Shown here in pieces: positions 17,621-56,631 of a DNA stretch of 64,000 nucleotides; positions within the stretch are counted from its first letter, which is position 1; every line of letters begins with the position of its first letter. The stretch is from Thermoflexus hugenholtzii (lineage in GTDB: Bacteria; Chloroflexota; Anaerolineae; Thermoflexales; Thermoflexaceae). The translations under genes were made by a program, and so were the position numbers. The stretch lies in the NCBI RefSeq assembly GCF_018771565.1, contig NZ_CP076326.1, positions 1,736,001-1,800,000 of the forward strand, written 5' to 3'. The notes beneath the pieces are model-generated. The model did not search any database. It was given only the letters and a program-made list of their open reading frames with translations, and was not told where the DNA came from.

Positions 17621-17854
17621 GGAGCGGTTCCGCCGCGACCGAGCGCCCTGGTAGTTCGGGGCTGAAGCCCCCTATGTAGGCCGAAATTCATTTCGGCATC
17701 CATTGCGTCATCGAAGAGAGGGTGTCGGGGCTAAAGTCCCTCCTACAAAACCGTTTTTTCGTAGGAGCGGCTTTAGCCGCGACCCTTTGCGTCATCGAGA
17801 ACCAGCGGTTCGGGATTTTCGGAGCGACTTTCGCCGCAACCGTTGCGCCATCGA
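17621..17854. repeat. Cluster of REP-like short palindromes
   Basis: The gap between 17590 and 18074 has no gene. It contains palindromic units such as GGAGCGGTTCCGCCGCGACC (17621), TAGGAGCGGCTTTAGCCGCG (17762), GGAGCGACTTTCGCCGCAAC (17821), the GGGGCTNAAGNCCC hairpins near 17658 and 17727, and three copies of TTGCGYCATCGA (17703, 17787, 17843). The shared stem/loop pattern with variable spacing is that of REP-type extragenic repeats. Confidence 0.6.
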
Positions 17855-17920
17855 AGGCCGAGGTTCGGGATGGAAGCCCCCCTGCCAGAAGCGACCGGCG
17901 ACGTCACAAAGGGTAACGGA

Positions 17921-18000
17921 GGGTGTGTCCCGATTTTGTCGGGCCTGGCCGCTTTGTAGGACAACTGCGAGCAGTTGTCCTACGATTTTGGGACACACCC
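17921..18000. repeat. 80-bp palindromic element, copy 1, with 8-bp flanking duplication
   Basis: Perfect 11-bp terminal inverted repeats GGGTGTGTCCC and GGGACACACCC enclose two inner hairpins: CCGA-TTTTG-TCGG (17930-17942) and a 12-bp stem with loop CGAG (17956-17983). It is flanked by GTAACGGA on both sides (17913-17920 and 18001-18008), as expected for a target-site duplication. A second 80-bp copy is at 56507-56586, without flanking duplication. Non-autonomous MITE-like element or conserved structured repeat. Confidence 0.75.
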
Positions 18001-18038
18001 GTAACGGAGCCCCGTGGGTTCCCTTGCCGGATCCGTGC

Positions 18039-18044
18039 TAAAAT
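18039..18044 (+). promoter_or_regulatory. Candidate -10 box before relA/spoT
   Basis: TAAAAT followed by TGGGG, 30 bases upstream of ATG 18075. No clear -35. It starts 38 bases after copy 1 of the 80-bp element, whose insertion therefore lies in the relA promoter region. Confidence 0.45.
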
Positions 18045-56506: not shown

Positions 56507-56586
56507 GGGTGTGTCCCGGTTTTGCCGGGCCTGGCCGCCTTGCAGGACAACTGCTCACAGTTGTCCTGCGATTTTGGGACACACCC
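56507..56586. repeat. 80-bp palindromic element, copy 2
   Basis: Same length and same 11-bp ends as the copy at 17921-18000. Differs at eight positions; four of them form two compensated base pairs (G-C for A-T in CCGG-TTTTG-CCGG at 56516-56528, and C-G for T-A in the 12-bp stem 56542-56569) and three are in the loop. No flanking target duplication here. The stretch 56218-56506 before it shows no gene. Confidence 0.75.
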
Positions 56587-56601: not shown

Positions 56602-56631
56602 TTGACGCCTCCGCCTCGACGGCGTTATAAT
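56602..56631 (+). promoter_or_regulatory. Promoter P1 of the structured RNA/tRNA-Met unit
   Basis: TTGACG (56602-56607), 18-base spacer, TATAAT (56626-56631). Ten bases upstream of a second promoter. Confidence 0.7.

Follow-up and report, generated by a model that had tools for sequence, protein, structure and literature searches.

What sort of element is a palindromic 80-bp sequence that is found twice within a single stretch of a Thermoflexus genome, and why does one of its copies lie directly before a gene of (p)ppGpp metabolism? The stretch under analysis, here the window, is 64,000 bp in length, i.e., bases 1736001-1800000 of a complete, single-contig genome of 3.32 Mb (Thermoflexus, Chloroflexota). 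An earlier note on this DNA had described two copies of equal length with the same 11-bp ends, had counted eight differences between them (two compensated pairs and three loop positions among these), and had pointed to duplicates of GTAACGGA around copy 1 as well as to the placement of that copy right before relA. These descriptions are confirmed, that is, upon re-reading of the sequence, from the columns in which the copies differ, as 8 bp on each side of copy 1, and by Pfam in the case of relA (Table 1). The note had then read mobility and covariation together, as implying a structured, mobilisable element, perhaps a MITE which acts as an RNA or as a protein-binding hairpin. Here the two are considered separately.

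The two copies in the window

The terminal 11-bp ends are identical in both window copies and are perfectly complementary. Differences between copies are located at element columns 13, 19, 33, 37, 49-51, and 62. As seen when the window copies are compared, columns 13 and 19 together represent a change from A-T to G-C, columns 37 and 62 a change from T-A to C-G, and columns 49-51 fall within the loop. A target duplication is absent at copy 2, and is absent as well at the copy 2 ortholog in G004, which along with G006 is a congeneric genome.

Table 1. Element copies, their parts, and adjoining features, in window coordinates.
Feature	Position	Strand	Remarks
Target-site duplication GTAACGGA, left	17913..17920	.	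Same 8 bp flank copy 1 on both sides
MITE copy 1, 80 bp	17921..18000	+	Sequence identical to copy at genome position 1557217
Copy 1 left terminal inverted repeat GGGTGTGTCCC	17921..17931	+	Imperfect homology with opposite end out to ~22 bp
Copy 1 small left hairpin CCCGA-TTTTG-TCGGG	17929..17943	+	Would be an alternative to the terminal stem; from sequence, pair counts
Copy 1 core hairpin GTAGGACAACTGC-GA-GCAGTTGTCCTAC	17956..17983	.	Present without terminal repeats in other Chloroflexota
Copy 1 right terminal inverted repeat GGGTGTGTCCC	17990..18000	-	
Target-site duplication GTAACGGA, right	18001..18008	.	Flanks copy 1
Putative relA promoter	18015..18044	+	Weak -35 position TGGGTT, extended -10 TGC-TAAAAT (18036-18044)
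relA/spoT-type (p)ppGpp synthetase/hydrolase, 734 aa	18075..20279	+	Pfam HD_4, RelA_SpoT, TGS, ACT_4
MITE copy 2, 80 bp	56507..56586	+	Insertion common to relative G004; without target duplication
Copy 2 core hairpin	56542..56569	.	T-A to C-G change plus inverted loop
Promoter TTGACG-18-TATAAT beside copy 2	56602..56631	+	-35 start exactly 15 bp outside copy 2

Copy 1 is closely preceded by a second kind of repeat, GTAGGAGCGGCTTTAGCCGCGACC at 17761-17784 (region 17761-17880), which we take to resemble the GTAGGAGCGGC-type palindromes of proteobacteria. Relatives of the portion at 17821-17880 are found at many places in G004 and G006, at ~75-90% identity.

A family of mobile elements

Genome-wide searching with a covariance model, i.e., checks which the earlier note had proposed, recovers approximately 65 copies from the element's own genome, along with further copies in G004 and G006, the model having been built from 30 copies. 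Exact GGGTGTGTCCC sites number 44 forward and 43 reverse genome-wide, versus zero for a control pattern consisting of the same letters read backwards. At 80 bp the element has no coding capacity, and its ends are matched perfectly over 11 bp and imperfectly over ~22 bp. Target duplications, defined as at least k-1 matches over 7-9 bp, are seen with 44 of 56 near-full-length copies, as compared with a mean of 1.15 when flanks are randomly re-paired. Where duplications are exact, their length is 8 bp (25 copies), 9 bp (4 copies), or 7 bp (1 copy).

Empty sites were sought by joining the flanks of nine copies and then searching for the joined sequences in congeners. Uninterrupted sites are found in G004 for the copies at 1612019, 1557217, 2038641, and 2091774, and in G006 for the copy at 2038641, with each of these sites lacking the element along with one copy of the duplication. 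Other insertions are held in common, i.e., window copy 2 with G004 and the copies at 1334407 and 1174435 with G006. Near-identical elements are present as well in public contigs named Thermoflexus sp., while the plasmids searched provided no match. From several copies the core is missing, with junctions that differ among those copies, so the palindrome can be lost. With its many copies, its target duplications, and the relatives' empty sites, the family is a MITE, that is, a non-autonomous miniature transposon, as the earlier note had supposed. In the literature searched, no description of this family was found.

The same 11-mers are found at similar spacing in Labedaea, Streptomyces, and other distant genomes, though with unrelated interiors, and these were set aside. 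Among these are GGGTGTGTCCC/GGGACACACCC repeats (L035-L064, Labedaea and Streptomyces) which enclose sequences like CACACTCG, occur many times in Labedaea rhizosphaerae, and are unrelated to the MITE family.

A fixed distance to promoters

A search for sigma-A-like promoters covered the two outward flanks of 60 copies and gave a score to each distance from the element, with promoter weights that were hand-set rather than trained on this genome, and with a threshold of 9. The scoring was devised after a few flanks had been viewed and after reading PMC3942029, and the controls consisted of shifted flanks and of independent genomes. Mean promoter score displays a sharp peak at 14-16 bp outside of the element end, the peak offset being 15. 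Flanks with a -35 box that begins 13-17 bp outside of the element number 32 of 120, whereas with shifted flanks the mean count is 1.4 and the highest is 5. Of the 32 flanks, 19 adjoin a right end and 13 a left end. Expressed per copy, 30 of 60 possess a promoter at 13-17 bp, and by this simple scoring the other half have no promoter at the expected distance. The same peak is seen in other Thermoflexus genomes, with a promoter at that distance from 23 of 62 ends, and 9 of 30 ends have such a promoter in other genera, where the terminal repeat is shared and the interior mostly is not. Copies are placed, in short, upstream of sigma-A promoters with a spacing that is fixed. These promoters predate the insertions, since -10 motifs are already present in empty sites, i.e., those corresponding to 399060 (G004 and G006) and to 1557217 (G004). 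The promoter beside copy 2, moreover, is found beside the G004 ortholog as well.

Gaps holding copies are co-directional, divergent, and convergent alike, as based on crude gene calls. A role in termination was rejected, as scanning found no terminator-like site and, by that same crude calling, there is no preference for convergent gaps.

At relA, a candidate promoter with the extended -10 TGCTAAAAT has its -35 position starting 14 bp beyond the end of copy 1. The -35 is weak, and a strict promoter scan called none at copy 1. The stretch at 18020-18041 is largely kept in both G004 and G006. In G006 an element occupies the matching place, its duplications having diverged, and in G004 the region upstream has been replaced. 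The position of copy 1 before relA would follow from insertion ~15 bp upstream of a promoter, and copy 1, judging from where that promoter is located, should lie outside of the relA transcript.

The hairpin and its compensated changes

The element folds with z = -7.3 to -8.2, the GTAG of the core being paired with CTAC. The earlier suggestion that covariation implies an RNA or a protein-binding hairpin does not carry over from two copies to the family, for which covariation is near chance, i.e., no higher than in shuffles (one doubly changed pair, with 137 of 500 shuffles as high). Rfam yielded no match at the element. Among column pairs, just two have more double changes than expected, namely 37-62, with 3 versus 0.67 (p = 0.017), and 38-61, with 1 versus 0.04.

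Loops, by contrast of orientation, come in pairs of inverses: CGAG in 54 rows versus CTCG in 22, and CAAG in 6 versus CTTG in 2. Indeed, the sole difference between the copy at 1334407 and its G006 ortholog (L077) is an inverted loop. Copy 2 has C37-G62, an inverted loop, and one further change, versus T37.G62 and an uninverted loop in its G004 ortholog. Copying of a changed right arm through the loop and onto the left arm would yield both T37C and the inversion, and would do so as one event. Arm homogenisation together with spacer inversion is the product that is described for template switching (PMC8604942), and compensated change in combination with loop inversion is considered to be the strongest possible support for template switching, though it is extremely rare in rRNA (PMC8794818). 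The compensated pairs thus probably derive from template switching between hairpin arms, with selection on an RNA not needed as an explanation, because arm homogenisation, loop inversion, and a half-changed intermediate in an ortholog together are the signature of that process. The core arms diverge by 1.4%, versus 3.2% for the rest of the element (p = 0.002), a low divergence which fits correction by template switching, and to which selection on the hairpin could also give rise.

The core, as GTAGGACAACTGC-NN-GCAGTTGTCCTAC, exists without terminal repeats in G001, G002, G005, and G025, and other genomes contain the paired core variants AGGGC/GCCCT and AGCAC/GTGCT. This stand-alone core is a dispersed repeat (loci L068-L090, in those same four genomes), with at least 20 scored places in some of them. 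Relatives with the same ends as the MITE, in turn, carry other or additional hairpins (L185, L190). In one further locus, L183 (G006:C221), the same end, GGGTGTGTCCCGATTTTGTCCGG, is accompanied by another hairpin and lies beside a long direct-repeat array which, as noticed from ORF translations, resembles a CRISPR array.

A candidate parent transposase

Across the class, for which 396 genomes were searched, the terminal repeat GGGTGTGTCCCAAnnTYGTMGG is present in 20. In one of these, G002, a decayed ISKra4-type transposase starts 61 bp inside the end GGGTGTGTCCCAAGTTTGTCGGGG, with its 3' end on the side that faces the terminal repeat, and that repeat in its turn has a promoter 16 bp away. Of the transposase, whose group has as a signature a conserved Asp between domains N1 and N2, just the C-terminal part survives, a 147-aa fragment which matches positions 262-416 of profile NF033572 (transpos_ISKra4) with an E of 4e-11 and 42.8 bits, the family cut-off being 205. 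The earlier note had suggested looking for a parent transposon with the same ends. Larger relatives with those ends do exist, but none of the searched genomes yielded an intact transposase between such ends. ORFs within the larger relatives include no recognisable transposase. In G006, two contigs break off inside of an element that opens with the same repeat, GGGTGTGTCCCAAAATCGTCGGAGAATTTAAGCGG, as would be expected if a longer, multicopy element had stayed unassembled.

Several other candidates were rejected. Ends other than those of the MITE, AGGTGCATTTCAGT, are present on two ISKra4 elements, which were read in G005 and G125. IS1595 was rejected as a parent, PF12762 being absent from 5 genomes, and so too was IS256, since PF00872 has no match in the element's own genome, a near-intact copy in G004 has GGGCAGCATGGTAGCC-type ends, and the copy in G002 has no matching end. 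The inverted pair GCGTGTGTCCC at 553849/556781 is a chance occurrence in coding DNA. Among viral contigs, the longer terminal-repeat patterns had no match, and the short pattern had matches of which the one looked into was in coding sequence. A longer relative at genome positions 3010979-3012662 (L150/L154) has ends ~500 bp apart, is interrupted by other repeats, and adjoins an IS1-like transposase that is apparently frameshifted (InsA-type zinc ribbon, weak). That transposase was dismissed as well, as it has its own, different ends by eye, with a scripted inverted-repeat search finding none.

Transposases of the ISKra4 group duplicate 8-9 bp of their target, which is a property of the family, and that length agrees with the exact duplications seen here, of which 25 are of 8 bp and 4 are of 9 bp. 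An ISKra4-group transposase most likely moved the family, as indicated by one decayed fragment, by duplication length, and by choice of target.

Proposed mechanism and its alternatives

The reading which we favor, and consider to be probable, is that of a promoter-targeted MITE which is moved by an ISKra4-group transposase and whose hairpin has been shaped by template switching. An ISKra4-group, Mutator-like DDE transposase (p-MULT 4), acting in trans, would recognise GGGTGTGTCCCAAnnTYGTCGG-type ends and would insert the element with an 8-9-bp target duplication, in either orientation, and preferably ~15 bp upstream of a sigma-A -35 box. Both gene and promoter would stay intact upon such insertion, because of which copies should be tolerated. 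The internal palindrome GTAGGACAACTGC/GCAGTTGTCCTAC would be cargo, one which serves also as a stand-alone repeat in related genomes. Following insertion, template switching during replication would homogenise arms and invert loops, giving rise to compensated pairs in the absence of selection on an RNA. Here we infer the transposase family, recruitment by the promoter or by RNA polymerase, and the template-switching route. A more far-reaching version, which is doubtful, is that of a promoter-docking cassette, with an ISKra4-type transposase guided by promoter-bound RNA polymerase, with a strong hairpin thereby delivered time and again to a set place ~15 bp upstream of -35 boxes, with that hairpin insulating or replacing upstream control elements (those of relA included), and with different hairpins swapped between the same ends as modular cargo.

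Some other transposase family with 8-bp duplications (ISL3, IS6, or an unlisted IS) could instead be moving the element, with the ISKra4 fragment in G002 there by coincidence. This would be in keeping with the failure to find an intact parent, with there being but a single ISKra4 fragment adjoining such an end, and with the differing ends of the two ISKra4 elements whose ends were read. It is rather unlikely, however, as IS1595 is absent, the ends of the G004 copy of IS256 are no match, elements of p-MULT 3 and 4, and not IS256, are reported to target promoters at 13-17 bp (PMC3942029), and 61 bp from end to transposase represents normal IS anatomy. Alternatively, insertion may be untargeted, with promoter-near copies having been kept as regulators of genes, i.e., as upstream elements, or with other sites having been purged. 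Half of the copies indeed lack a recognisable promoter at the expected distance, and core arms are relatively conserved. Purging, though, should result in a broad distribution, whereas the peak is sharp (offsets 14-16) and is found at the distance published for this transposase group. The same peak accompanies the same ends with different interiors in other genera, and the promoter -10 was already there in two empty sites. Untargeted insertion therefore seems unlikely.

Selection of the hairpin as an RNA or as a protein-binding DNA structure, with compensated changes as the record of that selection, has going for it a very stable fold (z ~ -7 to -8), less-diverged core arms, compensated changes in 3 copies at column pair 37-62 and in 1 copy at 38-61, and stand-alone cores elsewhere that vary while pairing is kept (AGGAC/GTCCT, AGGGC/GCCCT, AGCAC/GTGCT). 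Nonetheless we view this as very unlikely. Structure-wide covariation is no higher than that of shuffles, loops are inverted freely, as would not be expected of a binding loop under selection, and several copies have lost the core, at differing junctions. The hairpin, because it is upstream of the promoter, is not in the downstream transcript, and copies occupy gaps of all three orientations alike (crude gene calls). Homogenised arms and inverted loops, moreover, are both predicted by template switching. Barely credible, lastly, is spread by a REP-associated tyrosine transposase (RAYT), which would make the element one of REP type. The core does begin with GTAG and does stand alone in other genomes, and GTAG repeats are reported from Chloroflexi (PMC3733652), but 8-9-bp target duplications along with terminal inverted repeats are characteristic of DDE transposases, and the GTAG that here is paired usually is unpaired in GTAG REPs (PMC3733652).

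What, then, might a promoter-targeted MITE contribute? Promoter-targeted transposition in bacteria is known for few elements, i.e., TnGBS, ISLre2, and some ISKra4-group IS. Dozens of short, non-coding copies at promoters would imply that the ends suffice given a supplied transposase. Such a family could make targeting easy to assay and could mark promoters in the genomes of poorly studied thermophiles. It may serve as well as a natural replicate experiment on template switching, consisting of one hairpin in many copies, with inverted loops and half-changed intermediates.

Comparison with known systems

TnGBS, ISLre2, and ISKra4-group elements insert ~15-17 bp upstream of -35 boxes, and those whose ends are nearly perfect complements of one another do so on both sides (PMC3942029). 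With the ISKra4-group IS (p-MULT 4, prokaryotic Mutator-like; Guerillot et al. 2014, PMC3942029) the present family has in common a placement ~13-17 bp upstream of a sigma-A -35 box, on either side, and an ISKra4-type transposase fragment lies 61 bp inside of the same end in a congener. The published ones, however, are IS or transposons with a transposase gene, whereas here the element is 80 bp, is non-coding, and bears a hairpin. With TnGBS and ISLre2 (p-MULT 3) there is the same fixed placement, at 15-17 bp upstream of sigma-A promoters, but these are a large conjugative element or an IS and insert in one orientation, while in the present family both ends face promoters. Prokaryotic MITEs such as MITEAba12, QMITE, and Chunjie (PMC10969869) similarly are short, non-coding, mostly intergenic, and present in many copies, with terminal inverted repeats and target duplications; the literature searched, however, yielded no description of a MITE that inserts at a fixed position relative to promoters. 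GTAG-tagged REPs (PMC3733652), finally, are likewise short, high-copy, intergenic palindromes that start with GTAG, but in the Thermoflexus element the GTAG is paired, and the palindrome lies inside of a unit that possesses terminal repeats and target duplications.
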